NCBI GenBank assembly: GCA_029582155.1
Contig: CM055908.1
Location: 21,057,406-21,121,405 of the forward strand
Length of the DNA: 64,000 nt
Reading direction: 5' to 3'
Source: Panopea generosa
Taxonomy: Eukaryota > Mollusca > Bivalvia > Adapedonta > Hiatellidae
How positions within the stretch are numbered: position 1 is the stretch's first letter; each line of letters begins with the position of its first letter. The notes under the pieces are model-generated. The model worked only from the letters and a program-made list of their open reading frames with translations. It had not been told where the DNA came from and ran no database searches. The translations under genes were made by a program, and so were the position numbers. Positions 4,501 through 62,290 of the stretch are shown here, piece by piece.

Positions 4501-7500
4501 TGATGAGGTAAAAGTTAAAATGAATTAAAATATATAAACTAAATGTTTATAAGAAGATTACTGTGAGTGAGGTTGAAGTACCCAAATTTTATATTAAATT
4601 TTTAATAAAAGACTTGGAGTTTCTGTCTGTGCTGTTTTCATAAATATTCATGTACCTATTCAACTAATGACAGCTTCCCCATGAGTATGAGTGTAATATA
4701 AAATGGAAAATAAGAAAAAAATGTATACCTGAAAATGCATTAGTTGATAAATGAAGCTAAGAATAATTGTGAGAATGTCAGAAACTAGTTTTTTTGTTGT
4801 TTTTTTATGTAATTTGACTTAAAAAGATTAATATTGCATTTTATGTCCAGTTTAAAATCATTAAGATCATTTTTGTAGACAAAATTATTAATAAAATATT
4901 CATATTCTCAACTGTGAATATCACTTACAATAGTTGATTATGTGGATTGAAATTCATCCGGCAATTCTTTATCCTTACGGTATATATATATATATATATA
5001 TGTATGCATGTATATTCAACAATTCTTACTCAGCACATAATGCCATTTAAAATCAGTCTTTTCAAGTACAATATACTCTTATTTTTATATATGATGATAT
5101 AGTGTACGTTATATTGTTATATATATAATGTATATATTGCAGCTGCATATGATCGGTGAAGGAGGAAGCCGAGGGGCTACTCTGGAAGCAACCATGATGA
5201 AAATACTACATTGTGCCGGTAAGTTATGTTATTCAATGAATTTTAGTCTTGGTGGCATGCTGGTGCTGCAGAATTCCGGGGTAAGGACATAATAAATAAT
5301 TGCTTGAATCTCATCTCCTCCACCCACTTTTAAGAAAAAAATTTGATGAGAATCTAGCAATTGATTTATAATGGTCTAAACTACTGTTTGTGTGTCTATT
5401 TCTGGTCTTGAGACTTCCTTTTAGCTCATCATGTGACATCTACTTCCAACGCCAAGTGCTCTTTCTATTGTCCAAAAGACTGCAAGCACATGAATGAGTT
5501 GAAACCATAGCTATTACATATAGTCAGTTCCACCATCACTCCAAGGTAAACACTAAAAGTGGTTGCTTAATCAACCCGTCTTTATATAATTAATTGCTTA
5601 ATACAGGTGATTGGTGTTAACATTGTGCTCGTTTGTTTATTTAAATCATGTGTTTGCTCAGTAGAGGTACATTGTAATTGCCTATAATTGGTTGCTAAAT
5701 AAAGAAGATCCTTTGAAGCATTTGTACATGTATTGAGGTGACACTGTATGTTTATCTATATCAGGTCCTACCCAGATTATTGGTATGAGTGCCACATTAA
5801 ACAACATCGCAGATCTACAGCAGTTCCTCCATGCAGAAACCTACTCTAATGACTTCAGGCCAGTATGTATTTATTTGACTTGAAACTAGAAGCCAGATTG
5901 TCATCTTTTGTAATAACAGATTATAGGCAGGTTAATGAGAAATTATTTCAGTGTATCAATTTAGATCTGACTTGTTCTGCACCAGCTTTTGTAACTTGAC
6001 CATCCTATTGTTTTCTTGAACTTGTGTAAAAGCATAGTTTAAAAGTTTTGAAATCAATTATTCTGTAAGCATGAGTGGTTGTACTTCTGCAGGTGTCTGC
6101 TGCCTGACGTCTATACTGGGGCTAGGTTGGTTATCCTTTTTTGTGCTTTTAGCATGATGTTTCGTTTTTGCAGTACTATATTAATGAGATTGTCAGATGG
6201 AACTCAGAAATATGTATCAGGAATACAATCAAGGTTTCATGAAATTTATACAAATTTATTTTAGCTTGAATGAGAAAGCTCAAAGCTTATATGAACCATT
6301 CCCATATCAATGTTGTGGGTAAAACCAGTACTGAATATATATTTTTTAGAGGCATCGGGTTGAGCTGGGGATCGAACCAGCAACCTCCAGACTTAGTGGC
6401 CAACATTGTGTCTACAACACTACGCCCCGCTCCGCTTAACAGTGATAGTGATATGGAGATGGTTAAATCTAAGGGAGATAAGATTGGTGAAAGAGAAAAT
6501 AATGCTCTGGTTTCTTCTCAAATATATGTATTAACTACTATTTGAGTATAGGTACAGTTGACTGAACACATCAAACTGTCGGACAACATCTACAAGATAG
6601 ATGGAAAAGCTAAATGTCAAGATGACCAGTTTCTACATGACAGAGTTGTCTGCTTTCAGGTAATTCCCTCAGTAACTAAAGCTCTCTACCATTGCCTGTA
6701 ATCATATTGATTAATTGATATGATTTTAAAAAAGTGATTTTTTAAAGCTCATATAAAGGCTGAGGTTTTAATACTTCAGTGTTTGTTTTTTTTTTATAGT
6801 AAAACTGGGAAAATTATACAGCGACTGTTTAGAGAAGGAAAAAGACTCCAAACAATGTCTTTTAAAGCATTGTCTGAGATGAGAAATTGTTACAGGCGAT
6901 TTGCATTTTTCCATTCATAATTTCCCTGATTCAGGACTTAGTTTCTCATTTGTACTTATATCCTCATTTCTTGTAGTTCTGCCTGTTTATATAATATTTT
7001 CATATATAACTGCCTGTGTATTTAGTATTCTCATATATAACTGCCTGTGTATTTAGTATTCTCATGTATAACTGCCTGTGTATTTAGTATTCTTATATAT
7101 AACTGCTTGGTATTTAGTATTCTCATATATAACTGCCTGTGTATTTAGTATTCTCATATATAACTGCCTGTGTATTTAATATTCTCATCTATAACTGCCT
7201 GTGTATTTAGTATTTCATATGTAACTGCCTGTTTATTTAGTATTCTCATATAACTGCCTGTGTATTAAGTATTCTCATATGTAACTGCCTGTGTATTTCG
7301 TATTCTCATATGTAACTGCCTGTGTATTTAGTATTCTCATATGTAACTGCTTGCATATTTAGTATTCTCATATATAACTGCCTGTGTATTTTGTATTCTC
7401 ATATAATTTATATAACTGCCTGTATATTTAGTATTCTCATATATAACTGCCTGTGTATTTAGTATTCTCATTTAACTGCCTGTGTATTTAGTATTCTCAC

Positions 7501-10500
7501 ATATAACTGCTGTGTATTTAATATTCTCATCTATAACTGCCTGTATATTTAGTAATCTCATATAACTGCTGGGTATTTAGTATTCGCATATATAACTACC
7601 ATTGTATTTAGTATTATCATATATAACTGCCATGGTATTTAGTATTCTCATATATAACTGCCATTGTATTTAGTATTCTCATATATAACTGCCATTGTAT
7701 TTAGTATTCTTATGTATTGCTGCCTGTTTATTTAGTATTCTCATATATAATTGCCTGTTTATTTAGTATTCTCATGTTTTGCTGCCTGTTTATTTAGTAT
7801 TCTCATGTTTTGCTGCCTGTTTATTTAGTATTCTCATGCTTTGCTGCCTGTTTATTTAGTATTCTCATGTTTTTATGCCTGTTCCAGTATCTTCCAGACA
7901 TGGAGAAGGTGGATCCAGACCACCTGCTGGGGCTCGTACTGGAAGTCGTACCAGATAACTCTTGTCTTGTCTTTTGTCCTACAAAGAAAAATTGTGAGAA
8001 TGTTGCACAGATGTTGTGTAAGCTTATGGTCAAATACAAGAGGTTAGTTATTTTAATTTTTGTACGGGGTACACAGAATAGAATTGATTCTGATAAAATT
8101 TTGGTATTAAAAGAAAAGTACTGGATTGTTGTTTTTTCTGCTTATTTATTTAAATGAAGGGGATCAAGTGATAAATTCCTATTATCACATAATTAATGAT
8201 GCTGGAGTTTAATATTGATTGATTGAATATTTAGCGTCATTTTTATGCCATCGAGGGCTAACAGATGATCAGTTAACTTAACCACTGTTTCCTGGGATTA
8301 ACCAGTACTCGAGCACACCCCATCTCCGCAAGTAACTGATAACTTTCCCACTTGAATCAGTGGTGAGAGACGAATGATAATGAGACACAATGTCATATAT
8401 CAATCATCACGGAGACTGTTGCTGGGCGGGGATTCGAACTCACGACCCCTGGATTGATATTCAGACGCGTAACCGACTGAGCTAATCAGGCCCGTCTCGA
8501 GTTTAATAAACCCATGGCATAATATGGTATTAATCTAGTGGTATATAGTTACATCGTTTAGGTGGTTTCTGTATAACTCGGCTCTTGTACTACATCTTGA
8601 TATACATAGATGACGTCGATTTATCGTGGTAGAATGATGTTACTTTGAGACGTTACATCATATGATGAATGAAATATGCTCTTTTCTTATAAACATGATA
8701 TGTTAAACGGTAAATGTACTATTTTTATGAGTTACGTGATAAAATTAAACTGACGGCCGTGCTCATTTATTATTGAATTTATTAAACTTGTTGGCAAAAA
8801 CTATATAATACTCAGCAGAGCCTCGCATTATATATTTTTGCAAACTCGTTTGATAAATTCAATAATAAATGAGCACTCATGTAAGATCCTCTATTTATAC
8901 ATTATTAGTTCATTATGGCTTCTTATTTCACTGAATTCTTAAACTGAAAATTATTTATTTCAGAGAATTGTCCAGTGTGAAACGTAAGGACAGAAAAGAT
9001 CTTTTGAAGGAGCTTCACAATGATTCTGAGGGAAAGATTTGTCCTGTGCTGCAATACACGATACACTTCGGTGTAGCGTATCATCACAGTGGACTGACAG
9101 TGGACGAACGTAAACTGATTGAGGATGCATATTCAAACGGAACATTGTGTTTGTTGACCTGTACTTCAACTTTAGCTGCTGGTGTCAATCTTCCGGCTAA
9201 AAGGTAAAATTAAAAGACACATTCTGTTTTATAAAAGTGGGACCCAATCTTTTCTTAATAAACCCTTAAAGTAGTGATCCCGGTTTATGATATCTATTGT
9301 ATATGGTCACTCCATCCTATGACAATTGACATGTGAGAAAAATTGACCTGTTGTTTTCTAAGAAGGAATTCTACTAACTAAACATTTGCGCAGTTATTTA
9401 TGTTGCCATTGAATTTGTACTAGCATGTACTAAGAGTAGATTATTTTGGACCCTCAAAATAGTTTGTCCTAGGAAAAGTGTCAATTTCATTGGAGCCTGT
9501 GGTGTTAATTTACATGAAAAAACTGTTTTAAATAGTTTAAACATATTTTTTTACGTATTTTATTTTAAACAAATGAACATAAAATGATAACAAAATATAT
9601 AACATATGCAAATGGATTGAACTACAAGTTATAACAACATTAGTTACAGTTGAATGGGTTCATGATTATGAGATCTTCTTTATCAAATAAAATGCCAAAT
9701 ATGATTATTTGTATAATGTGGCGAAAATAAATAATTTACAGTGGTAAGACTAAAATAAGTTCAAAAAACATATATATTTGTCCTTGATGTGTAAGAAACT
9801 TGGAAGGTAATAAAGTCACCCCATATCTCTCACATACATGCAGGAAACACTCTTTGTAAAAGCATTCTTGTTTCTTTTGATTACATTTATGGACTCTCTT
9901 ATTTGTCCTTTCATTAGAGTTATCTTGCGAAGTCCGTATGTCGGCCAGTACTTCATCAGTAGAAGTCAGTATAAGCAGATGGTTGGTCGAGCAGGACGGG
10001 CTGGCATTGACAGTTCAGGGGAGAGCATTCTTATATGTAAAACTTCAGATAGGGAAAAGGTAAATGAAGATGCCAGTTAGGGGACATTACTCTTTAACAT
10101 CTTTAATTTTAATAATTGAACCTGTGGAAGGAAGTCTCCTGGATGCTTGTAATCTGTAGTATGTCCGACATTCTCTTATACATAAACATGTCACACACTC
10201 AGCTATATATTCACTCTTTTCACAAATGAATGAATCAAATTGTTTATTAAAGAAGGTGACCCATTTAGTACAAGAACCTTTCTTCCATGACGTGTTCTTA
10301 TTTGATAACAATAGTTACAAACAAAATTAATGATACCACAACCTTTCACAGTTTCTTCTGTCAGAGTTACAAATCTAAAAATATACAATTGGCACCAATA
10401 CATTGATTTTTTTTTTTACAATAACATTGTTTTGATTTATGGGTTGAATGGGGTTTAATGCCATTTTCAATACATCTTATCACATATGGCATGTCTGGTT

Positions 10501-33969: not shown

Positions 33970-36900
33970 CTAAAAAATAAACATTGACGCAATGGTAATG
34001 GTCATCACAACATAATTATACAAGAGAAATGGGCTGTGAGACGACTGCTAGCCTAAGTGTATCAGGCTGATTTGAGGCCAAATCAGTAACAGGAAAACAA
34101 ATTTGAAAATGTTAGTAAATATTCCCTGTTACAAATGCAGTGCATGACTATATTTCAAGAACATTATCAATTACTACATCATTGTTAAAATACATGTATT
34201 ACCTTTTAATTATATTAATTATACTATAAATGATTACTGGAGAAATCTAGAATAATTTTTTTTGTTCAGCAAGAGCATTTCATATAGATTATTCCATTCA
34301 TAGTTCAAAAAGCATAAAATTATGGGCTATTACATTCATGGTTTGAAAGACCACGTGGCTCAAGAGGCACTTGGACGAGTCCACTTATGACTGATAGGGC
34401 ATATGGGCTAGTCCATATATATCTGATATTATTTTCAACAGAAATAAACTTGTGTATAAATCATTGGAATAAAAATGTTCAAACATAAAACAAACCTTTC
34501 CGCAATTTCTACAATGATGTCGACGCCTCATGAAAGTGAAGAATGACTTACAGGCTGTACATCTCTCTACTTCGTCATCTGGCACCCACTCTGGTGGCTC
34601 TGTAAACAAAGGTCAAATCTGGTTCATCAACAACAAAGGTCAAATCTGGGTCATCAACAACAAACCAAGGTCAAATCTGGGTCATCAACAACAAACAGGT
34701 CAAATCAGGTTCTTCAACAACAAACAAAGGTCAAATCTGGTTCATCAACAACAAACAGGTAAAATCTGGTTCATCAACAACAAAGGTCAAATCTAGTTCA
34801 TCAACAACAAACTGGTAAAATCTTGTTCATCAACAACAAAGGTCAAATCTGGGTCATCAGCAACAAACGGGTCAAATCTGGTTAATCAACAACAAACAAA
34901 GGTCAAATCTGGGTTTTCAACGAAATAGGCTAAATCTGGGTATAATGTTTGTTAGAATAGTTAACATAATTTTTATGCCAAAGAGAGCAATGATCATCAC
35001 TCTTTAAGCGACTGCCGATATGGCAGGGTGCATGCACCTCCGCCCCAGTCTTCAAAGTGGGTTACAGTTGCCTCTACTACACCTGGTTGTTTCCTTCTTA
35101 GTTCCAGATTCCGAGATCTAATCATGGATAGAAGACAAAGTAAATTCAAATATATGTATGACAAATGTGGAAACCATCGGTGACGGAGGGGGTTGTTTTA
35201 ACCAGATTAACCAGATCATCATCTAAGTCATATCCACTTTACACAGAGGGACTTTTTAACCATCGTATGCCATGTTATTAACGTGACCCTTAAAGGATCA
35301 TTTTGATGATACAACAATTAAGGTCATCTATAGCCTATACCAACAGCATCAACTACAGAAACTTACCACAGCACATGCCTTGGGAATTAACCATCAGCAG
35401 GGCTGTCATTTGAAGCTGGGGACCAGTGTTTCTCCCCAGCTATTCTTACTTGAAAACACAGCTATTTTCAGCTGAGTTTCTTCAGTGTTTTTTTTAGAAG
35501 ACCCCAGACCCCCCTTCTACTTTTTCCTTTCACCCTTCTACTTCAAAACTTCCAGCCGCCTTAGTCTCCATAATGGACATATCAACAAATCAACTGCAAA
35601 ACAATTTGACATAGACTTCAAAATCAACATCTTATCCAGCCAGTGATGCAGCAACAGGAGATGTAGCAAACCTGCTGATGCTGTCCACTGGCAACATCAT
35701 CTTGCTTGTAAAAAAGCCTAGAGCTTAGTGCGAGGGTAAATAAAACTTTGATTGACTGACCAAAGAGAGCTAATCAGTTAACCTAACCACTCTTTCCCAT
35801 TAATAGATGTAATGTCATATATCAATCATCTCAGAGACTGTGGCTGGGCAGGGATTCGACCTCACGACCCCTGGATTGATAGTCAGACACGCTACTGGCT
35901 ACTAACTGGGTCTGGCAACATTGGTTATATCTTTATTAATAACAACAAATGCAATGACTTATTAATCTACCCATGATAAAATAAATGAAGACTACAGCAA
36001 GGCATCCTTACCATCAAATATACGTCTGGGTGATGCCGGTGGTCTACTATTATTACTATTACTTGTTCTCTGACTGGACGTTTGATTGTTTGGTTCGACA
36101 CTTGGTGATATTGGACCTTCATTGTCCCCTTGACTTTCTGGTGTAGTGGTTGGACTTTCCTCAGGTTCTGGGATATTTGTAGAGTGTAGTTCAAAGACAC
36201 ATTTCAGTATGTGTCGAAGGTCACTAGCATAATTGGTCTGAAGTTGGTCAGCAACACCTACAAGAAAGTCATTTTTTAAATATATAAAATTCTCAAAAAT
36301 ATGAGAACAATTTTTCAATAACATTGTTTTGACTGGCTCATACTCCTGTTTAATCATTTTAAACAAAAGTTGTCAGAAGACAACAAAGCTCGTCTCTGGT
36401 AGTCTAAGTCCAAAAAGGGCCATAACTGTGCCAAAATGCAATCCAGAGTTATGGTTCTTGTCTCTGTGTGTTCCATTGATGATGGTGAACACACATGCGA
36501 AGTTTCATTCACATCCAATGAGTGGTTGCATAGATATCTTAAAGTTAAACACAAATGTTTAACCTGGGTGTCTACAGACGAGGACGCCTATGACGCCGGG
36601 GTCATGGCAAATCCAATAGCTCTCCTTGGACTTCGTCCAAGCGAGCTAAAAAAAGAGAAAACCATCATAACTCAATCATTCCCTGGCAGTGGCATACAAA
36701 ACCTCATTTTTTCTGTAATATAGACCAATCAGTGCTCCAGATATGCAGATTTGGTATGTTAAAGCTTTGAAATTTTTTAATAAAGCATTGAAATTTAAAA
36801 TTAGTGGCAAAATTGGATATTAACAATTTCAGTTATGTGTGGTTTATTTTAAATGGCAATTTAATTAAAAATGATAATTTTTAAGCTCAACCTTATGAAA

Positions 36901-42900: not shown

Positions 42901-45900
42901 ACTTCGTCCTGGTGAGCTAAAATTGGGGTGGGGGGTAATTCTGTCATTATTGCAGATGGAGTTATGATTCTTTCACTCTTCACATTGCCTTCTATCCATG
43001 TTCAAGGTCAAGTTATGCTCCAAACAAGCAAAACCAACTAAAATGAACTAAAATAGGGGGTGGGTGGTTGGATAATTCTGTTATTATTCCAGATAGAGAT
43101 ATGGTTCTTTCGCTCTGCTCTTCAACACTGACCTTTATCATATTCCCTTCAGTACTTTCTGGACAAGAACTCACACACAGATGGACAAAGCAGCAACTTT
43201 ACACTTGCCCTTTGAGAAACATTGAAAAAATCATTAAAGACCCTCAACTCTGTTAAAAATCAAGACCCTCAAATCTGTTAAAAATCATTAGTGTGAAACA
43301 TTGGGGGAATACTAGACATTAAACTGACACTTGGTGCGTTAGTGTATGAACTGAATATTGTATGTGTATGGAAGATATATGGCTGTTTTTTAAATGTTTA
43401 TAGAGAAAAAAACGTGAACAGCCTGCAATAGTTTGTCCTTCTCTATCCCTCTATCTCAATTTGTAACAAAATGTCTGCAACAGCCAATATGATGATACCT
43501 TATTTTGTAGAGTAAAGTCTGAAAGGGACGGTACATTTCTGTCATGTTGGTGGGTTCCATGTCTGGGTTCAGAGGTCCTTCTGGGTATATCAGTAAACCA
43601 CTGAAATATAATAATTTGCAATAAAAATCATCTAGAATGGTAAGAAATCACCTAGTTACAATGGCTGTTCTAGGGATGGAAAACACCTACTACCAGACAA
43701 TAACAAATATAGAATTTGTTATCATCATCTGATGTATATCCCACAGTTCAAAGTATCATAACCCCTAGGACTGTGTAGAAATATATTTTGATGTTGCTTT
43801 TAATGACTGTTTTGTTTAATTAACGTGGCAAAGTCTGAAAGCGCCAATTAAAGAAGGGTATTTTGTGTTTACAAATATGTGAAATCTTTCATAAATGCAA
43901 TATTGACATACAATACCTAGGTATGATACTTTGACCTGTGGCAAATCCAGGAATGGTGAACACCACCTACAAGACAATGGGTAATCTAGGAATGGCAAAC
44001 ATCACCTACCAGACAATGGCTAATCTAGGAAAGGCAAACATCACCTACCAGACAATGGCTAATTCAGGAATGGTAAACATCACCTACAGACAATGGCTAA
44101 TCCAGGAATGGCAAACGTTAGTGTTGGGAATCAGATGACATTTTTACAATCGATAATCAGTTTGGTTCAACCGATTGATAATCGGATAATAGGCCAATTT
44201 GGGTTTCTGTAAGAGATGACCCTGAATTTGGCATTAAGAACGTGGAAACTGAACATTTTATCATTACTATGCTACTTTGTACTGTATAAATAGTTTATAT
44301 GATTTAAATTCTCAATAAAATATTGTTAAATTAAAAAGCTTAAAAGTTATTTTAGTATAATGATGCCAAGATGCTGATTTACATTACTAGCATATATTGC
44401 CATATACAATTGTGTACATATACATACATATATATATATATATATAAATGAGCCTGAGATTATGAGATATTTCATTCTCCAGAGGCAACTTACTTTAAAA
44501 CATATAACATCCTAGCACAAACTTGACAGACAAAAAATTACAACAAAAGATCACATGATTTTAAAGTTTCAGTGAACTGAAAGTAAATCAATGCATATGG
44601 TAACTAATTGGTAATATAACATACTAGTAACTTAGTATGTTACTTTATTCAACAATGTTCCAAAGCTGTTGGTGGAATATTCAACTAAGTTGGTAACTAA
44701 TAATTCAACAAAATGTTCAAACTGTAACTTTTTCCCAAAACTGAAAAGATTGTGTATCTTTACTAGCTAATCTTTACCACTATCTTTAACTGTTCATGTC
44801 TACAAGGTCAGCACCTATTCTAATCCTGTTTTTGTTCACTATGTTGCCTGCCAAACTGAAAACACTTTCTGATGGAACAGAACTTGTTGGTACAGCAAGA
44901 ATCATCATATCCAGCATAGTTTTCGATTGAGTTCCATCCTTTATTTTTTGTAAAAAGAAAGTACTTCAACAATTGAAACTCCGCTTTACCCCCCGGATAA
45001 GGGAACAAATTATCGTGATTTTCTATACTCATTTAAAGTCGCTTGTTTTTTAACTCATGTCAATAAGAGTGATCTCCCTTTTTCAGAAATTAGCGGACTG
45101 CAAGAAAATAACCGAAATGGTTATAATACGGCGACAATTGATTGTGAACAAACACAATCGATTGTCGCCGACTTCAACTGAACCCTACCAATTATCGATA
45201 GTCTCCGACAATCGGGACACCACTAGTAAACATCACATACCCAACTGACTAATCTAGGAATGGTGAACATCACCTACCAGACAATGGCTAATCTAAGAAT
45301 GGTGAACATCACCTACCAGACAATGGCTAATCTAGGAATGGTTCACATCACCTACCAGACAACGGCTTATCTAGAAAAGGAAAACATCACCTACTAGACA
45401 ATGGCTAGTCTAGGAATGGTAAACATCACCTACAGACAATGGCTAATCTAGAAAAGGTAAACATCACATACCAGACAATAGCTAATCTAGGAATGGTAAA
45501 CATCACCTACCAGACAATGGCTAATCTAGGAATGGTGAACATCACCTTCCATACATTGGTTAATCTAGGAATTGTGAACATCATCTACCAGACAATGGCT
45601 AATCTAGGAATGGTAAACATCACCTACCAGACAATGGCTAATCAAGGAATGGTGAACATTACCTACCAGACAATGGCTAATCTAGGAATGGTAAACATCA
45701 ATGCAGGATCATAGTCATCTATCATTTCCTGTGTTAAAAGGTGGATCTTCAATGCTCTGAAATTACAATTTTATCTTATTCATTAATCAGTTTTATTTGA
45801 GTACTATTTGTATAAAATTCCGAAAATATTAAGCAGAACACAGCATTAACTACAACCAAGGTGTTGTCTGAACACTTGACCTCTCTATCATTCAAGTCCT

Positions 45901-48900
45901 TCTTTGTTTCAAGAGTGTCTTCCTTAATGGGGTACCAGTGCTCTAGATGATAATTTGATCATATAAAATGTACACATAATAAGTTTTAACTACATAAAGT
46001 ATTTCTTCTTCTGTATAAAATCTTAAAACATAATGAATTATATAAATCCCTGTTTAACAAACAGACATATTAATATTCAATAAGACAAACAGACAATTTG
46101 CCAATAACACTTAAAGAAAATAATGAATGAACTCACCCATGAACTGTTTAAAAAAAATGAATGGACTTTTATGTGAACTGTTTCAGAAAATAATGAATGT
46201 ACTCACCTGTAAACTGTTTGAAAAAAAAAAAATGAATGAACTCACCTGTGAACTGTTTCAGAAAATAATGAATGGACTCACCTGTGAACTGTTTCAGAAA
46301 ATAATGGACTCACCTGTGAACTGTTTCAGAAAATAACACTGACACTTCCTGTAACATGTCATATTCCTTCATTGTCTTTACAGGTACCATTGCACTTACA
46401 TAGCTACAAAATATCACAGTGAGATCAGTTCATAATGATTAGAATCTCTTTGTAATGGGCTACATTTCATCTATAGTTTCAGTGTTTGAATAATTAATGT
46501 TTCATCTTTAATTTAATCCTTGTAATTATTACAATATCAAAACATATCTAAAACATCACTTTTCAGAGCAAGGACAAACATACAAATTTTTGAATTGTTA
46601 CAACTTATTTATTTTACTTCTATTGTGAAACAAGTTACTACAACTTATAGTAACCATGCTCAAAGTTTTCCTAGGTAGAACCTGTACATATGTGGATAAA
46701 GTGTCTTTCTCAAGGATACCACACACAGCTGTGGAGTAGCAACGCTTCCCCCATGTGCATGTACAGGACAGGATTTTAAATAAATCTTGACACAGAGAAA
46801 TATAAACATTTATATTAAGATAAATAATCTGAATCTGACAAATGTCACTAAATGGATGGACACAGCATTGCTTGGATGAAGGCTGTAACAAATATTGTAG
46901 ATTAATCTAATATCATTTTGTCTTTCATAACTCTATATTCATCTGTGTAATAAATGTTTACAAATAACAATAAGTGCTGCACATGTAGTCAATATACATA
47001 TCAGTACATTTTAACTGTGTTGCAGCTGTAGAACTCAAATGTTTTCTTGATCCACCAGAGATTAACATTTTGTTATAAACATCCCCACCTGCTTACAACG
47101 TCAAAAAGTACAAAAGCATGCAGTAAAAAACTGTTATTTCTGTAGTAATGGAGTCAATATTTCGGTAGTGTCAATATTTTTGCCAGTCCTAACTTTTTCC
47201 CTTCTGTGTGTATGTAAATATATTGCTTTATTTCTCGATATTGTCTGTGTCAATATTTTGGATATCTCTATTCCAGTTTTAGTTCCCCAATTGATCATTT
47301 TACACTTTTTATTGAATGTCTGTCATGGTATAATAACTGTTAACATAATATCGTGTGTGTTTTCCATGTCATGTGAAAATGTATGCATGCTATATTTTCA
47401 GCTTGTTTAGACATGTCACTAATTACTGGTCTACAGTATTGCTGTCAGTTTTAATGACTTGACAGAATGTTGCAAACATTGTGTCATCAATTGAGTGATT
47501 GCATGTAAATGCCGGATATGAGTATTTATCACATCAGTGTTATTTTACTGCACAGTCCTAATATGAAAGTGAAAGTACAATTGAAAATAAATATTGAATT
47601 TGAAACAAAATCTATGTCGATATTCTGATATCTCAATGTTTTTTGGCATTTCCCTCCAATATTGAGGTAACAAGTTACGACTGTAACTATGCTCCCATTC
47701 CCTTACATTGCACATTTGCATATTTTCCCTTTTCTGTGCTCTCTGGAAGCATTACATTTCCATGAGCTGCAACTTTTAATCTTAACTGAATAATCAAATT
47801 ATTTCTATTACCTTAGCTCAAATTCTGCAAACAGCTTGTCAAATATAACCAATGCTTCTTTTATCTGAAATGCAAAGTATCTCTACTTCAACAAATCACT
47901 TCATCTCTACGGTAATACCGGGAATACTTTAATACAGACAGGTCCATCAAAATATCAGTCTGTCACTTACATGTTTCAGGAAAACAAACAAAACTTTTGT
48001 TTAACAAAGAAATCAATATGGGATGCATGGAACAAAACCAGGAATGAAAACTGTTTCGTTACCTGTTTGCAACTAGGTCTTGTGTGGCCAAGCAATTAGG
48101 ATATCATCTTAACCCTTTACTCCATAGATATGCGTTTTCCCGCACCAATCACAGAAGGCCTTTGAAAACAGTGCAGGAAGAGTTCAGATTGCTCGTAACG
48201 AGCAATCTGAACACTTCCTGCACTGTTTTCCACTCTGTCAGTTAATACAAACATAATTCACCCAATAATTCAAAAGCCTTCTATATTAGAGGTGTCTAAA
48301 GGCATCTATATTAGAGGTGTCCAAAGGCGCCTATATGAAGTAAAGGGTTAAGATGGCTTACGTCCCATCACTGAGGTCATATGCTGGAGTTTCACTCAGT
48401 TCATACACTTTATGTTGGAACATTTGTCAGTTACATGCGGAAGGATGGTGGTTCTACTCAGATTCATTCTGAGGTATTCCTCCGACTATAAAACTTGATG
48501 TGCCATATTTAACCTAAAATGTGTTGGAAATGCCTTTTAACCCCATTGATAAAGGGACTTCAACCACATAAATATATAAAATGTGAAGGGATTGCCTATA
48601 AGCACTACTGTTTATATATTGTGTGCTTATTCAGTTGGCTAATGATCTAATGCTGTAGGCTGTTAGATGTCGCTATGTATAATTCATAGATTAATTGTAT
48701 GACATTATTGATCCATTATGATCATAGCTAATAATTATGTATGCATATAATGTCCCCAGAGGTCTTGTCAAAACTTGGTTGATTAATAAAAGCACCAGTT
48801 GAACTGAATTATCTTTTTTCATTTATTTTTCATCTACTGCAATCAATGTCTATGCTTACACATAGACAAGTAAATATTTAGTTCAGTGCTCCTAAAACTG

Positions 48901-51900: not shown

Positions 51901-53703
51901 TATGTCTCTATCAGTATGTTGTATTAAATCTTTGTTCTTTATTAGCATAAAAAAGAAGCTAAATATTCAATCAATCAATCAATCGTTCTTTACTGACTAT
52001 CATTTCTGTTCTGTCGATTCAGTGGCAGTGTGGGAGCAGGAGTATATTTAAAACATTATTTTAAATACCTTTCTCTTGTTTTCTAATTCTTGCTGTCATA
52101 ACATACAATAATGGCAATGTCAAGCCTACAAAGCTATTCAATCTATCTAAGAGAACTTAAATAAATAAATGCAGTCTATGACAGCCTTCAAATATCTAGA
52201 AAGTGCAACTAGTCAACTATATTTCAAATATTAAAAAAACCCACATAATTCATCTTAATTGTTGTTTTCAATACTATATTTAAATCATGCCAAATAATAT
52301 ATAAGCTGAAACTACAGAACCAAAATGCAATGTTTATTACTATAATACCCCACCCACATTTTTCTTTGCAGTAAACTCAATTTCAATATCAATTTTCATG
52401 TTTTCACAGAAGAAAATTTATATACAAAGAGTTCCAATTATTGTAAATCTACGAAAATATTTATAAAATTACCAGGACCAAACACTGACATTTTACATAA
52501 CGCGATTGATCGCAAATTATCTGCAAAAACATTATAAGATTTTAGACATCGTTACCATTTTGGCAAAGGGAGGTAATTTTATACTCTTCATAATGGAGAA
52601 TTTGAGAAACACCCGTGAGTTACGTCATCGTCTTTTTTTTTAGTCTTTGCTCGGGTAGGTGGTAAGAAACGTGTTACCTTGGGCATAGATATCCGACCAA
52701 TGAGAGCGATTATTAAAAATAGATTACATTATATTCAAAGCTATCCACCAATCACATTAGAGGAATTAAAATAGATAAATGAATATGCACGAGAGGTTTT
52801 CCAAAGTCACATTATTGGGCATGTGGTATAAGCACCGCAGAGGTCAATTGTTTATACTGATTAGTTACAGTCTTTAAACAACAGTTTGACCTGTGTCGTT
52901 TCGAATAGAGATATCTGCAGACCTGTGTATTGTGAAAACTAGCTTATCCGATTTTTTAAGACAAGCCGACGGGCAAGTAACTTTGAAAAAGGCACATGTC
53001 CGGATCCAGATTTGACAAGCCCCGGGCATCGGGCTATCCTATTCTTGGAGCACTGCCACTGTTTCCTGGGATTAATCAGTACTCGAGCACACCCCTTCTC
53101 CGCGAGTAACTGAAAACTCCCACTTGAATCAGTGATGACAGACGAATGATAATTAGACACAATGTCATATATCAATCATCACGGAGACTGTTGCCAGAGG
53201 GGGGATGCAAACTCATGACCCCTGGGTTGATAGTCAGATGCGTAACCGACTGAGCTAATCGGGCATGGCTGTGGAAGTTTCAATTTACAATTATTGAAGC
53301 TTTCAATTGGGAATTTGTACCACTCAATTGGGAAAACAAGATATTAAAACATGCTTGTGAATATATAATCTCATCAATCATGTTAATTTGAATAAAAACT
53401 ATTCATTTATACAGCCTGTCAGTGTTAAATGATGAAAGCAATAAACATTTACACACGAGCAGTTGAATATAATATTTCTACAGTATTCTACCAAAAATAT
53501 TGCAGAAAAAAACAATTCAACCTGTTTCCATCTTTGATTTTAATTGCATGGGTGACTGATCATATCATGTGGTGTTTATTTGTCACGATCTTTTTTTAAA
53601 TAAAACATTGTTTTGACATTTGGGTGTCACCAAAATTAACACATTTTTCTTCGGTATTTCTACCTACCTTAGGCCTATACAACCACTTCCGTATAGAGTT
53701 CAT
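33847..53703 (-). CDS. ZFYVE28: LST2 / ZFYVE28 homologue, 12 exons, complete
   Basis: Lateral signaling target protein 2 homologue: an endosomal FYVE protein that negatively regulates EGF-receptor signalling in worms and mammals. Exons in transcript order: 53668-53703, 51048-51326, 50331-50480, 47812-47864, 46314-46403, 45667-45756, 43499-43600, 39681-41279, 37012-37175, 36012-36257, 34496-34599, 33847-33969. All are GT-AG and in phase, giving 1,011 residues (human about 890). Layout: conserved N-terminal helical domain (1-270), a long acidic Ser-rich disordered region (about 280-800), a conserved [34 protein letters not shown] segment (about 830-875), and a C-terminal FYVE domain with [14 protein letters not shown] and PVRVC motifs. 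K86 sits in [10 protein letters not shown] and aligns with human K87, the reported monoubiquitination site. An in-frame TAA at 53713-53715, four codons upstream, fixes the start. Confidence 0.96.
34496..34599 (-). CDS. ZFYVE28: LST2 exon 11: first half of FYVE domain
   Basis: Residues 938-971. [20 protein letters not shown] has the WxxD motif and first zinc pair. [11 protein letters not shown] is the signature basic patch that binds phosphatidylinositol 3-phosphate in FYVE domains. Acceptor TTTACAG abuts a minisatellite; donor GTTTGT, phase 0 end. Confidence 0.96.
34605..34940. repeat. 31-bp minisatellite at the LST2 exon 11 acceptor
   Basis: About eleven units of GGTCAAATCTGGTTCATCAA plus CAACAAACAAA (plus strand). 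It abuts the FYVE exon acceptor: the last unit runs into the TTTGTTTACAG tract. On the transcribed strand each unit reads a T-rich tract with ACCAG. Confidence 0.9.
35750..35917 (-). mobile_element. SINE-A copy
   Basis: AGAGCTAATCAGTTAACCTA, TAATGTCATATATCAATCAT and GGCAGGGATTCGACCTCACG match SINE-A, with an internal deletion. LST2 intron 10. Confidence 0.75.
36012..36257 (-). CDS. ZFYVE28: LST2 exon 10
   Basis: Residues 856-936 with split codons. [18 protein letters not shown] is nearly identical to human [19 protein letters not shown] Pro/Ser/Asn-rich linker to the FYVE domain follows. Acceptor TTGTAG, donor GTAAGG. Confidence 0.95.
36400..36660 (+). repeat. Dispersed repeat (GGCCATAACTGTGCC type), full-length copy
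   Basis: AAAAAGGGCCATAACTGTGC, ATGGTTCTTGTCTCTGTGTG, AATGAGTGGTTGCATAGATA and AGCTCTCCTTGGACTTCGTC, in order. The same modules recur three times at 42340-42930. Non-coding in all frames by inspection. Confidence 0.7.
37012..37175 (-). CDS. ZFYVE28: LST2 exon 9
   Basis: Residues 801-854 with split codons. [20 protein letters not shown] leads into [20 protein letters not shown], matching human [20 protein letters not shown]. Acceptor TTACAG, donor GTATAT. Confidence 0.95.
37176..39680. other. LST2 intron 8
   Basis: AT-rich with no open frame of interest. Near 37950-38020 a CTAGACCACAGGACTAGTAG segment and repeated ACTAGCCC motifs resemble text near 41950-41990 and the end of the transposon at 51674, possibly scraps of related elements. 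Confidence 0.35.
39681..41279 (-). CDS. ZFYVE28: LST2 exon 8: long acidic Ser-rich region
   Basis: Residues 268-799. It begins with [19 protein letters not shown], the end of the conserved N-terminal domain. More than 500 residues of disordered sequence follow, rich in Ser, Thr, Asp and Glu, with one local island [16 protein letters not shown] that may be a short binding motif. It ends in a Ser/Cys run ECDCDKDW. Acceptor TTCCAG. Donor GTGAGT in phase 2; the open frame meets TGA at the donor. Much longer than the human counterpart region. Confidence 0.95.
42340..42930 (+). repeat. Three partial tandem copies of the GGCCATAACTGTGCC repeat
   Basis: Copies start near 42342, 42508 and 42685. Each has GGCCATAA..GTG..AAAATGC, CTCTGTGTGTTCCATTGAT and AATGAGTGGTTGCATAGATA. 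Only the last continues into TAGCTCTCCTTGGACTTCGT. LST2 intron 7. Confidence 0.75.
43499..43600 (-). CDS. ZFYVE28: LST2 exon 7
   Basis: Residues 234-266 with split codons at both ends. [13 protein letters not shown] and [15 protein letters not shown] match human GLVVYADGPLNLD and MSELFRPFHTLLRKI. Acceptor TTTCAG, donor GTATCA. Confidence 0.95.
43935..44118. repeat. 39-bp exon-6-derived array, distal block
   Basis: About five units separated from the main block by a hAT element. Four units retain ACCTAC (GTAGGT on the LST2 strand) at 43965, 44004, 44043 and 44082, spaced 39 bp. Same unit as 45240-45666. Confidence 0.9.
44119..45225 (-). mobile_element. Decayed hAT transposon inside the minisatellite
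   Basis: Ends TAGTGTTGGGAATC and GACACCACTA are imperfect inverted repeats. Flanks GCAAACGT and GTAAACAT match at 6 of 8 positions, as expected for an aged 8-bp hAT target duplication. On the minus strand, about 44930-44790, a reading frame gives [20 protein letters not shown] then [10 protein letters not shown], the C-terminal dimerisation (hATC) region of hAT transposases. The rest of the transposase is missing. 1,107 bp. Confidence 0.85.
45240..45666. repeat. 39-bp array of LST2 exon 6 tail plus 5' splice site
   Basis: About eleven units. On the LST2 strand each reads TGATGTTTACCATTCCTAGA, then TTAGCC, ATTGTCTG and GTAGG. That is the last 34 nt of exon 6 plus the first 5 nt of its intron. 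Exact GTAGGT donors occur at 45272, 45311, 45350, 45389, 45428, 45505 and 45622, and at the true donor 45661. One unit has GTATGT and one GTAGAT. Non-coding in the intron: each unit has an in-frame TAG. Confidence 0.93.
45667..45756 (-). CDS. ZFYVE28: LST2 exon 6, parent of a 39-bp splice-donor minisatellite
   Basis: Residues 204-232 with split codons at both ends. [20 protein letters not shown] then LAIV match human [23 protein letters not shown]. Acceptor TTTCAG, donor GTAGGT at 45666-45661. The last 34 exon bases plus the first 5 intron bases form the unit of the array downstream. Reading on past the donor gives TGG then TAG. TG joins T of exon 7 to make C233. Confidence 0.95.
46110..46313. 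repeat. 32-39-bp array of LST2 exon 5 tail plus 5' splice site
   Basis: Six units on the LST2 strand of TTATTTTCTGAAACAGTTCA then CAG|GTGAGT and CCATTCA. That is the last 23 nt of exon 5 plus its donor. Intact GTGAGT donors begin at 46313 (true), 46281, 46245, 46206 and 46136; the one near 46170 is mutated. Some units carry a long T run upstream. Confidence 0.93.
46314..46403 (-). CDS. ZFYVE28: LST2 exon 5, parent of a splice-donor minisatellite
   Basis: Residues 174-202 with split codons at both ends. [19 protein letters not shown] and [10 protein letters not shown] match human [18 protein letters not shown]. Acceptor TTGTAG, donor GTGAGT at 46313. The last 23 exon bases plus this donor are copied serially downstream to about 46110. 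Reading past the true donor gives AGG then TGA, so this donor is the only one that keeps the frame. Confidence 0.94.
46650..46865 (-). mobile_element. SINE-C copy
   Basis: CATGCTCAAAGTTTTCCTAG, GTAGAACCTGTACATATGTG and TGTCTTTCTCAAGGATACCA match reverse SINE-C. LST2 intron 4. Confidence 0.5.
46870..47805. other. LST2 intron 4 remainder
   Basis: AT-rich and unique-looking, with no open frame or repeat that I can support. Confidence 0.4.
47812..47864 (-). CDS. ZFYVE28: LST2 exon 4
   Basis: Residues 156-172 plus two bases. [17 protein letters not shown] matches human REALRHFDVLFAEFEL. Acceptor TTTCAG, donor GTAATA. The phase-2 AG joins C from exon 5 to give the S of ELSYVSAM. Confidence 0.95.
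48055..48560 (+). mobile_element. SINE-B copy split by a MITE
   Basis: The head TGTGTGGCCAAGCAATTAGG lies before the MITE. The body resumes with GATGGCTTACGTCCCATCAC, GGATGGTGGTTCTACTCAGA and AACCTAAAATGTGTTGGAAA after it. Removing the insert and one TTAA restores a continuous SINE. LST2 intron 3. Confidence 0.8.
48113..48347. mobile_element. piggyBac-like MITE, copy 3, nested in SINE-B
   Basis: TTAA at 48109-48112 and 48348-48351. Ends CCCTTTACTCCATA and TATATGAAGTAAAGGG. The hairpin at 48165-48231 has two arms of about 32 bp around CGTAACG-type centre. Two units of the internal TATATTAGAGGTGTC module. Confidence 0.9.
48958..49140. repeat. Possible diverged relative of the CCATCCTTAAAAAA MITE
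   Basis: Shares TTTGTTTGCCATG, a CCCA block and AGTGGGTAG with the MITE at 1885 in the same order, but the ends are not clear. LST2 intron 3. Confidence 0.3.
49386..50029 (+). mobile_element. Non-autonomous transposon carrying a transposase N-terminus
   Basis: Ends ATATTCCCTTATTAACGCCC and GCGTTAATAAGGAATAT are inverted repeats. Inside is a short frame (49796-49972) for a zinc-finger start of a hAT/BED-type protein. About 640 bp, LST2 intron 3. Target duplication not clear. Confidence 0.7.
49796..49972 (+). pseudogene. Fragment of BED/hAT-type transposase N-terminal zinc finger
   Basis: Starts [19 protein letters not shown] and continues with [20 protein letters not shown] and ALNSH, then a stop: 58 codons. 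The pattern, W at about 10, then CxxC and a downstream SH, is what I recognise from N-terminal fingers of hAT-related proteins in marine invertebrates. No catalytic domain follows. Confidence 0.6.
50331..50480 (-). CDS. ZFYVE28: LST2 exon 3
   Basis: Residues 106-155, phase 0 at both ends. [20 protein letters not shown] and [15 protein letters not shown] match the human [20 protein letters not shown] region. Acceptor CATAG, donor GTAAGT. Missed by simple ORF searches in this frame; identified by translating the reverse complement. Confidence 0.95.
51048..51326 (-). CDS. ZFYVE28: LST2 exon 2
   Basis: Residues 13-105, phase 0 at both ends. [30 protein letters not shown] and [10 protein letters not shown] are hallmark LST2 segments. 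[10 protein letters not shown] carries K86, equivalent to the human monoubiquitination lysine. Acceptor CTTCAG, donor GTAAAC. The intron before it carries a SINE split by a 1.38-kb transposon. Confidence 0.96.
51602..53268 (-). mobile_element. SINE-A split by a transposon
   Basis: 51602-51673 holds the SINE tail side (TTCATTTTTATGCCATCGAG). 53056-53268 holds the remainder, up to the tRNA-like head (GCGTAACCGACTGAGCTAAT, GGGC). The two parts join at CCACT. LST2 intron 1. Confidence 0.85.
51674..53055. mobile_element. 1.38-kb non-autonomous DNA transposon with CAGTGCTCCAAGAA ends
   Basis: CAGTGCTCCAAGAA at the left and TTCTTGGAGCACTG at the right are exact 14-bp inverted repeats. AGCCC/GGGCT blocks sit just inside. 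CCACT flanks both sides (51669-51673, 53056-53060), a 5-bp target duplication confirmed by the interrupted SINE. No transposase frame. CAGTG ends suggest hAT, but 5 bp is not the hAT size, so the superfamily is left open. Confidence 0.85.
53270..53660. other. LST2 intron 1, 5' part
   Basis: AT-rich, no feature recognised before the exon 1 donor. Confidence 0.4.
53668..53703 (-). CDS. ZFYVE28: LST2 exon 1 (start)
   Basis: [12 protein letters not shown], matching the human start MMNRFRKWLYKPK. An in-frame TAA lies four codons upstream, so no longer start is possible without another upstream exon. Donor GTAGGT, phase 0. Only 36 coding nt. Confidence 0.93.
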
Positions 53704-54453: not shown

Positions 54454-54870
54454 TCATTGGGCTCTGGTCCGACGAGATTCTAGTGTCTCCAATCCCAGGT
54501 GGTCTAGCAAGGAGGAGACACTGCTGGTATTGTGATATCTGTTGGTTACATCCTCTGAACAATCTTCAGCTTGTGTGTCTGGTCCTTGATGCACGGGTTC
54601 CAGACTGGAACAGTACTCCAGGTTTGGTCGCACAAGTGTTTTATAGGCCGTACCATTTATCTCTCCATTGTTGATACGCAGATTGCGTCGAAGGAAGCCG
54701 AGCGTGCTGTTACTCTTCTTCACAGTCTTGTCAATATGATAGTTCCACGAGAGGTTCTTGGACATGTGGACTCCGAGGTACTTCGTTACTGAATCTGTAT
54801 CAAGTGTGTGGCCCTTCAAAGAGTACTCATATATAATTGGGGTCCTCTTGCGGTTGACACAGAGGATAGT
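54454..54870 (-). pseudogene. Non-LTR retrotransposon reverse transcriptase fragment
   Basis: On the minus strand the frame reads YLGVHMSKNLSWNYHIDKTV, then SNSTLGFLRRNLRI and AYKTLVRPNLEYCSS. This is the segment after the RT catalytic core in jockey/CR1-type elements. It then loses the frame. No catalytic YxDD motif and no endonuclease are present. The plus-strand frames here are shadows. Confidence 0.8.
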
Positions 54871-57984: not shown

Positions 57985-60570
57985 TAATCACAGTCACAGA
58001 CATTCACAAGTCCAGTCACAGTCGCATACATTCACCAGTCCTATCACATATACACCAGTTCAATTAAAGTCAGACACTCACCAGTCAAATCACAGTCATA
58101 GACATTCACCAGTCCAATCACAGACATTCACCAGTCAAATCAAAGTCAAACATTCACCAGTCCAATTACAGTCATATACATTCACCAATTCAATCACAGT
58201 TATATACATTCACCAGTTCAATCACATTCAGACATTCACCAGTCCAATCACAGTCACAGACATTCACCAGTCATATCAAAGTCGGACATTAACCAGTCCT
58301 ATCACAGTCAGATATTCACCAGTCAAATCAGTCAGACATTCACCACTCCTACCACAGTCAGACTTTAATCAGTTAAATCACAGTCAGACATTCACAAGTT
58401 CAATCACAGTCAGAGTCAGACATTCACCAGTTCAATCAGTCAGACATTCACCAGTCCAATCAAAGTGACAGACATTCATCAGTCTAATCACACATTCATT
58501 AGTCCAATCACAGTCATAAACGTTCACAAGTCAAATCACACATTCACCAGTCAAATCACAGTCAGAAATTCACCAGTCCAATCACATGCAGACATTCACT
58601 AGTCCAATCCTAGTCATATGCACTAGTCCAATTACAGTCAGACATTCTACAGTTCAATCACAGTCAGACATTCACCAGTCCAATCACAGTCAGACATTCA
58701 CCAGTCCAATCACAGTCAGACATTCACCAGTCCAATCACAATCATAGACATTAACTAGTTCAATCACAGTCAGACATTCACCAGTCCAATCACAGTCAGA
58801 CATTCACCAGTCCAATCACAGTCATAGACATTCACTAGTTCAATCACAGTTAGACATCCACAAGTCCAATTACAGTCATAGACATTCACCAGTACACTTA
58901 CAGTTACGTACTTTCACCATTCAAATCACAGACATTCACCAGTCCAATCATAGTTAGACATTCACCAGTCCAATCACAGTCAGACATTCACCAGTACAAT
59001 CACAGTCATAGACATTCACTAGTTCAATCACGGTTAGACATTCACAAGTCCAATCACAGTCAGAGACATTCACCAATCCAATATCAGTCACATACATTCA
59101 CCAGTCCAATCACAGTAAATTATTCACCAGTCCAATTACAGTCATAGACATTCACCAGTACAATTACAGTTACGTACATTCACCATTCCAATCACAGACA
59201 TTCACCAGTCCAATCATAGTTGCACATTCACCAGTCCAATCACAGTCAGACATTTATCAGTCCAATCACAGTCATAGACATTCACTAGTTCAATCACAGT
59301 TAGACATTCACAAGTCCAATCACAGTAAGAGACATTCACCAATCCAATTACAGTCACATACATTCACCAGTCCGATCACAGTTAAACATTCACCAGTCCA
59401 ATTACAGTCAGACATGCACAAGTCCTACAACAGTCAGACATTTACCAATTTAATCAATCAGACATTCACCAGTCCAATTACAGTCAGACATGCAATTGAC
59501 CTATCATAGTCAGACATAAACAGTCACAGACTTTCATCAGTTCAATCTGAGTCACAGACATTCACCAGCCCACACACATTCAGACATTCACCAGTCCAAT
59601 CACAGTCAGACATGCAACTGACCTATCATAGTCAGACATTCACCAGTCCATTCACAGCCACAGATATTCACCAGTCCAATCAAAGTCATACATTCACCAG
59701 TCCTATCACACATTCACCAGTTCAATCACAATCAGACATATACTAGTGAAATCAGTCAGACATTCACCAGTCCAATCACAGTCAGACATTCACCAGTCAC
59801 AGCACAGTCAGACATTCACAAGTTTAATCATAGTTATACATTCAGTTCAATCAGTCAGACATTTATCAGTTCAATCACAGTCAAGCATTCACCTGTCCAA
59901 TCACAGTCAGACATTCGTAAGTCCTTTCAGTCAGATATTCACCAGTCCAATCAACCAGTCATATCACAGTTAGACATTCATACGTTCAATTAGTCAGACA
60001 TTCACCAGTCCAGTCACAGTCAGACAGTCACCAGTTTAATCACAGTCTGACATTTACCAGTCTAATCACAATAAGACATTCGCCAGTCCTATCACAGCCA
60101 GACATTCACCAATCCAGTCACAGTCAGACATTCACCAACCCAATCACAGTCAGACATTTACGAGTCCAGTCAGTCAGACATTCACCAGTCCAATCACAGT
60201 CAGACATTTACCAATCCAATCACAGTCAAACATTCACCAGTTTAATCACAGTCAGACATTCACTAGTCCTATCAGTCAGACATTCATCAGTCCAATCAAT
60301 CAGACATTCACCGGTCTAATCACAGTCAGAGATTTACCAGTCCTATCACAGTCAGACATTCACCAGTTCTATCACAGTCAGACTTTCACCAGTCATACCA
60401 CAGTCAGACATTCACAAGTTCAATCACAGTCAGACATTCACCAGTTCAATCAATCAGACATTCGTCACAGTCAGACATTCACAAGTTCAATCACAGTCAG
60501 CCCTTCACCAGTCCAATCACGGTCAGACATTCAACAGTCCTATCACAGTCACAGACATTCACTTCACTGC
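57985..60570. repeat. 26-bp minisatellite, about 2.6 kb
   Basis: Roughly one hundred units of CAGACATTCACCAGTCCAAT plus CACAGT, with point changes and short deletions throughout and some higher-order runs (for example near 58810-59050 and 59150-59330). It gives only spurious short frames. Confidence 0.97.
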
Positions 60571-61988: not shown

Positions 61989-62013
61989 GTAATATCAAAT
62001 GCAAATTGAATGA

Positions 62014-62290
62014 GCCAGACCCAGTTAGCTCAGTCAATAGCATGTCTGACTATCAGTCTAGGAGTCATGAGTTCGACTCCATGCCCAGTTACAGTTTTGG
62101 TGATGATTGATATATGACATTGCGCCTTATTTCCATTCTTCTCTCACTGATGATTGTGTGAGAATGTTTAAGTTACTTGCGAAGATGAGTGTGCGTGAGT
62201 ACTGATTAACCTTCCAGGATCCCAGGAAAGAATTAGTAGGTTAATTGATCATCTGTTAGCTCTCTATGACATATAATTGATGCTAAATCA
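62014..62290 (+). mobile_element. SINE-A, forward copy
   Basis: Head GACCCAGTTAGCTCAGTCAA (A box) and CATGAGTTCGACTCCATGCC (B box). Body GATATATGACATTGCGCCTT, TACTTGCGAAGATGAGTGTG and AACCTTCCAGGATCCCAGGA, with a tail near TAATTGATGCTAAAT. Confidence 0.8.

Follow-up and report, generated by a model that had tools for sequence, protein, structure and literature searches.

At one exon of the bivalve Panopea generosa, the end of a coding sequence and the 5' splice site that follows it are repeated in tandem in the adjoining intron, which raises the question of how an exon edge comes to be copied beside itself, whether this is peculiar to one gene, and what the additional donors could do to splicing. 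The window, by which we mean the whole stretch of 64,000 nucleotides that was analysed, lies on contig C15 of a genome of 1.47 Gb in 39 contigs, and its relevant features are collected in Table 1. Between 51326 and 33847 on the minus strand, 11 placed exons join into a single open frame of 999 residues whose only stop is the terminal one, with the start codon upstream of these exons. The N-terminal part of the product appears similar to LST2/ZFYVE28, and we treat the gene as LST2/ZFYVE28-like. The first 278 residues gave no Pfam match, and the C-terminal end of the frame is a FYVE zinc finger (PF01363, E 3.2e-24). In mammals, LST2 is described in the accessible part of one report as a negative regulator of EGFR (PMC11348030).

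Table 1. Positions of exons, arrays and the inserted element in the window
Feature	Position	Strand	Details
LST2 exon 5	46314..46403	-	Donor CAG/GTGAGT at 46313
Exon 5 array (A1)	46115..46336	-	TRF 6.2 copies, ~36-bp unit; start of the intron preceding exon 6
LST2 exon 6	45756..45667 (90 nt)	-	Acceptor TTTCAG, donor GTAGGT at 45666; frame continuity across 11 exons
Exon 6 array (A2), part 1	45226..45700	-	TRF 12.3 x 39 including the exon's own copy; unit scan
hAT-like insertion (1107 bp)	44119..45225	-	Splits A2; 40-aa open stretch matches Pfam Dimer_Tnp_hAT, E 5.5e-7
Exon 6 array (A2), part 2, far side of insertion	43939..44116	-	TRF 4.6 x 39; four more GTAGGT
Two decayed A2 units	43650..43727	-	~50 bp from exon 7 acceptor; 29/39 (43727) and 26/39 (43688)
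LST2 exon 7	43499..43600	-	Acceptor ATATTTCAG/TGGTTT; Cys completed by TG/T across the junction
Intron array, 10.4 x 29	34610..34912	-	Stops ~10 nt short of the FYVE exon (34599)
Intron array, 28.8 x 31	6979..7868	+	Stops ~20 nt short of the exon at 7888

The array in intron 6 has a 39-bp unit consisting of the terminal 34 nt of exon 6 and five intron nucleotides (GTAGG), a composition claimed in an earlier note on this DNA and borne out by a unit scan. The scan found 15 copies beyond that of the exon as well as two decayed remnants; the exon copy and the 15 further copies agree with the 39-mer at between 28 and 39 of its 39 positions, and the two that flank the insertion (at 45272 and 44120) match worst. 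The consensus of 12 in-register copies is exon 6's own 39-mer, letter for letter, and the exon tail reaches a score of 68 in the array where 500 shuffled tails gave 28 or less, a match beyond chance that upholds the note's view that the edge of a coding exon has been amplified in tandem. All twelve exact GTAGGT words that it had counted were located, namely the true donor at 45666 and those at 45627, 45510, 45433, 45394, 45355, 45316, 45277, 44087, 44048, 44009 and 43970, along with the variants GTATGT (45471 and 45240) and GTAGAT (45588); further GTATGT words at 44624 and 44427 are within the inserted element. A search of the organism's own genome (one assembly) returned three matches, all at this locus. 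The extent first given to the array (43935-45756) had to be amended, since the array is present there but about 1.1 kb of the interval (45225..44119) is the hAT-like insertion.

The two 8-bp flanks of this element (ATGTTTAC and ACGTTTGC, alike at 6 of 8 positions) are both pieces of the repeat unit, and the element therefore entered a pre-existing array: the array is the older of the two. The ends of the element start TAGTGGTG and TAGTGTTG and form a weak terminal inverted repeat in which 9 of the first 24 positions agree, and an inner inverted repeat spans 24 nt at 79% identity. That the exon-edge copies were instead introduced by the assembler is scarcely credible, given that the 16 scanned copies (exon copy excluded) are all distinct, that a 1.1-kb element, its two 8-bp flanks similar, interrupts the array, and that the same build is present in other genes.

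The end of exon 5 has been repeated in the same way. There the unit comprises the last 22-23 nt of the exon, GTGAGT and about 8 intron nucleotides, four further GTGAGT are found, and the exon tail scores 46 against the array (500 shuffles, at most 25). Two other intron arrays in the window come close to acceptors and were considered as copies of the exon heads that follow. The candidate beside the FYVE exon was rejected on a non-significant exon-head match (p ~0.15), as was the one beside the exon at 7888 (p ~0.98), an exon that gave no Pfam match and is presumably helicase/POLQ-like. A 25-bp unit (AAAGGC.TCTATATTAGAGGTGTCC) is common to two separate arrays of the window (21413-21574 and 48273-48336), and some arrays are therefore dispersed families.

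Tandem-duplicated exon/intron boundaries have been described before under the name of mirages, first in amphioxus Adh3 (original report as cited in PMC3087553 and PMC3902484) and also in the globins BflGb6 and BflGb9, TnC and PGBD5, where either boundary may be involved. In the available portions of these reports, amphioxus mirages vary in length and are somatically unstable, and regular splicing is undisturbed according to the authors (PMC3087553, PMC3902484). The resemblance to the arrays described here is close: as far as those accounts go, both are minisatellite-like and boundary-spanning, lie on the donor or the acceptor side and keep AG or GT in many copies, the amphioxus units measuring 10-160 bp. 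In LST2 the unit crosses the exon/intron boundary (34 + 5 nt at exon 6, 22-23 + ~14 nt at exon 5), the copies run head to tail beside the authentic exon copy, and the splice signal is kept in many of them (12 GTAGGT and variants). Differences from the cephalochordate cases are that adjacent introns of a single gene both carry arrays here, that one array has been split by a hAT-like element, and that a rate over sampled exon edges can be given (see below). Instability and undisturbed splicing, on the other hand, are features reported in the accessible text for amphioxus, whereas the arrays here are known from the sequence of one assembly. A literature search of open-licence papers found no report of mirages in molluscs or otherwise outside amphioxus. 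The LST2 array is of the amphioxus mirage kind, which is apparently common in this genome.

Two further systems are comparable in part. The VNTR in intron 18 of human ABCA7 (25-bp unit) is likewise flush with an exon and includes the exon's donor, which forms the start of the unit, and retention of one unit has been observed, as the available text of the report has it (PMC5954066). That text describes the unit as starting at the donor GT and, as far as it extends, does not describe an exon tail, whereas the LST2 unit includes one; moreover, the ABCA7 VNTR is given there as polymorphic, disease-linked and confined to one locus, and the LST2 array is known from one assembly. In the second system, tandem duplication across an intron/exon boundary can create an intron by reusing existing splice signals, according to the part of the source at hand (PMC4974935). 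The arrays here show no new intron, but likewise duplicate the boundary.

Whether such arrays recur was approached by a genome word search for three AGGTRAGT at a spacing of 23-53 bp, with the reversed pattern as control. The search gave 4463 + 4744 matches as against 1930 + 1054 for the control, an excess that was discarded as an argument for exon-edge arrays since most of the counts stem from long arrays and dispersed families; among the matches listed, distinct donor clusters numbered about 16 over the initial 52 Mb of contig C1, and control clusters about 18 over its full 101 Mb. Twelve distinct donor-bearing clusters were read, and a coding exon stands at the start of two (L037 and L040), while in the other ten no recognisable upstream exon was seen (one of them, L034, having no upstream sequence to read). 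At the first of the two, an ABCE1-like exon (1022-1639 of L037) is followed by copies of its tail with GTGAGT in a 26-bp unit, GTGAGT being kept in 19 of the 20 copies found, although the match of the exon tail alone is weak (p 0.038). At the second (1391-1689 of L040), an Ig-domain exon is followed by a 34-bp unit, and its tail scores 30, the best of 500 shuffles reaching no more than 22.

For a rate, exons were chosen according to protein family, with their sequence still unseen, 60 from kinases and 14 from myosins. The kinase exons are 60 partial, stop-free matches out of 106 that remained. Another 46 of these were left out, among them matches over the full domain, matches interrupted by stops and a number of partial ones, including near-duplicates; the 30 best kinase loci (L004-L033), most of which span nearly the whole domain, are outside the rate. 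The myosin exons are 14 of 81 matches, mainly from among the top-ranked. Arrays were called at a TRF score of 50 (kinase) or 40 (myosin) and then read by eye, and exon edges were approximated by the ends of the domain hits, so that the denominator of 148 edges is itself approximate. A tandem self-copy including exon letters was found at 4 of 120 kinase edges (donor side L072 and L115, acceptor side L083 and L113; with a single extra copy in each of L072 and L083) and at 4 of 28 myosin edges (donor side L127 and L136, acceptor side L129 and L135). In total, 8 of 148 edges are self-copied (5.4%, 95% CI 2.4-10.4%); the exon shares only some 9 nt with its copies in L129 and L135, and dropping both leaves 6 of 148 (CI 1.5-8.6%). 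Arrays as such make up 7.6% of the 90 kinase loci.

The exon is the source of the array: the copied tails of L115 and L127 code for residues within a Pfam domain match, and the in-register consensus in LST2 is the exon edge itself. Such self-copying recurs in several genes, at donors and at acceptors, with many intact putative decoy donors. The earlier note implied that the exon 6 array is singular, and this does not hold in either sense. Within the genome it is contradicted by the intron after exon 5, by the ABCE1-like and Ig-domain exons and by the 8 of 148 sampled edges; as a kind, mirages were already published from amphioxus, as the available part of the report makes plain (PMC3087553). 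The array as a special device of LST2 was also considered, and the same build in other genes rules it out.

Recurrence at exon edges could mean that array birth is favoured at splice sites, for instance by transcription-linked breaks or by the step in base composition between exon and intron. On a reading of the 60 kinase loci, about nine arrays end at an exon edge or within about 25 bp of one, a gathering of ends that an edge-blind process alone would not predict; in the window, moreover, two arrays include donors and two stop just before acceptors. Under a fixed criterion for tandem self-copies, which picks up wholly intronic arrays at an edge as well, 8 of 120 edges were nevertheless positive as compared with 41 of 480 intron points 70-190 bp away (p 0.58), and an earlier, looser criterion had given 5 of 120 edges against 9 of 120 in introns. 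By the fixed-criterion test, exon edges are thus neither spared nor singled out, and the missing excess is as an edge-blind process predicts. Both tests speak against targeting, which had been prompted by the pile-up of ends and was rejected on them. In addition, the window was chosen for its oddities, and selection that trims arrays running into exons would let their ends pile up at edges with no targeting at all. We therefore regard preferential birth at splice sites as very improbable.

Turning to what the extra donors may do, a donor matrix was built on the 67 sampled exons (out of 74) that have a clear donor nearby; it includes the mirage exons. The true donor of exon 6 scores 8.2, against a mean of 8.8 for the 67 donors that is biased upwards because these were picked by a consensus. 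Of the 15 copy sites of exon 6, seven score 8.2 and one 9.5, and this supports the claim that the copies offer decoy donors in near-native exon context, with 8 of 15 matching or exceeding the true site on this matrix. At exon 5 the true donor scores 11.8 and three of the four copy sites have the same value. Donor strength cannot discriminate between the copies, and position or exon definition must therefore make the choice, provided that the proximal donor is used. Use of the next donor is predicted to be read into an immediate stop in both LST2 arrays (Trp-TAG at exon 6, Arg-TGA at exon 5) and in ABCE1, and into a slightly later one in L136. If the first decoy were used, the reading frame would be shifted in L115 and L127, and L040 would gain 33 nt and L072 111 nt, in both cases in frame and free of stops.

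Over all copies scanned in eight donor arrays, departures from consensus affect 29 of 360 donor letters and 122 of 1496 letters elsewhere, and this comparison gave no sign that decoys are purged. When the indel-shifted copies of LST2 exon 6 are dropped, donors appear better kept (13/336 vs 99/1364, p 0.026), which could indicate some constraint on them. This pooled difference is due to ABCE1, where the donor letters are unusually well kept (1/120 vs 32/440, p 0.004, one of eight tests), and it vanishes when that array is taken out (12/216 vs 67/924, p 0.46). An apparent opposite effect in LST2 exon 6, where donors seemed worse kept (p = 0.01), came from copies shifted by one base and was set aside; over its 12 in-register copies the figures are 3/72 for donor letters and 28/396 for the rest (p 0.45).

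These observations bear on the proposal that the arrays serve as a rheostat, in which decoys used at a low rate would lead to an immediate stop in LST2 and array length would tune the amount of productive mRNA, in the way that length is associated with expression at human ABCA7. The predicted stops in both LST2 arrays and ABCE1 would suit such a role, as would decoys of the strength described (8 of 15 at exon 6 at least equal to the true donor, three of four at exon 5 equal to it) and the well-kept ABCE1 donors. In ABCA7, the accessible report ties the length of a VNTR that includes the exon 18 donor, and of which one unit can be retained, to lower expression and exon 19 skipping; the same text, however, has one-unit retention unchanged by array length (PMC5954066). 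Against the proposal, decoy donors over all copies are kept no better than the rest of the unit, and the difference that emerges without the out-of-register copies comes from ABCE1; the first decoy gives no stop in L040 and L072, where it is in frame, and in L115 and L127 it changes the frame; and arrays are found in unrelated genes. A regulatory function of this sort accordingly strikes us as highly unlikely.

With great probability, then, the arrays reflect a minisatellite process of the mirage type that is blind to exon edges and is tolerated because the outermost copy keeps splicing intact. In this account a short tandem duplication would once have covered both the 3' end of exon 6 and the 5' splice site that follows, and would then have expanded into the intron, presumably by unequal exchange or slippage. 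The outermost copy, that of the exon, would be held by selection on its coding content and would stay the splice donor, so that the extra copies would all be intronic and be removed with the intron. These could then drift as near-neutral sequence, and the exon 6 array would later have been split by the hAT-like element. The exon-proximal donor would be the one used, probably by exon definition or proximity, which are invoked because donor strength does not discriminate. The arrays are thus best read as an ordinary by-product of a minisatellite-rich genome that does not spare its exon edges.

The interest of these arrays lies chiefly in their apparent commonness and in the clean test of splice choice that they offer, rather than in any single array. 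The usual way to study splice-site choice is to weaken a donor or to move it. In this gene a single exon bounded by one acceptor precedes many equally strong donors, all in the same exon context and spaced at 39-nt steps, which amounts to a natural experiment. As similar sets of donors are present in other genes of the genome, the effects of position and of strength could be read from ordinary RNA-seq. The findings also suggest that exon-boundary minisatellites, known from amphioxus, are not confined to it and may be frequent, and they provide natural cases for models of intron gain via tandem duplication. One might go further and suppose that self-copying edges, at about one in 20, are a standing feature that leaves thousands of genes with spare donors and acceptors, that their length tunes unproductive or altered splicing, and that they form a seedbed for exons and introns; we think this rather unlikely.

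Other repeats were noted in passing. A dispersed repeat of about 51 bp occurs at C1:47250401-47251617 and 51920891-51921543, with donor-like words on both strands (AGGTAAGT...ACTCACCT). At 58053-60562 the window contains a 2.5-kb array with a 26-bp unit, in which the acceptor-like word TCACAG is found 53 times in about 97 units. Three related tRNA-like blocks (53160-53280 and 35840-35920 on the minus strand, 62010-62110 on the plus strand) probably belong to a SINE family, as judged by eye, and an open frame at 54454-54870 on the minus strand (LGVHMSKNLSWNYHID) resembles, again by eye, a fragment of a LINE reverse transcriptase.
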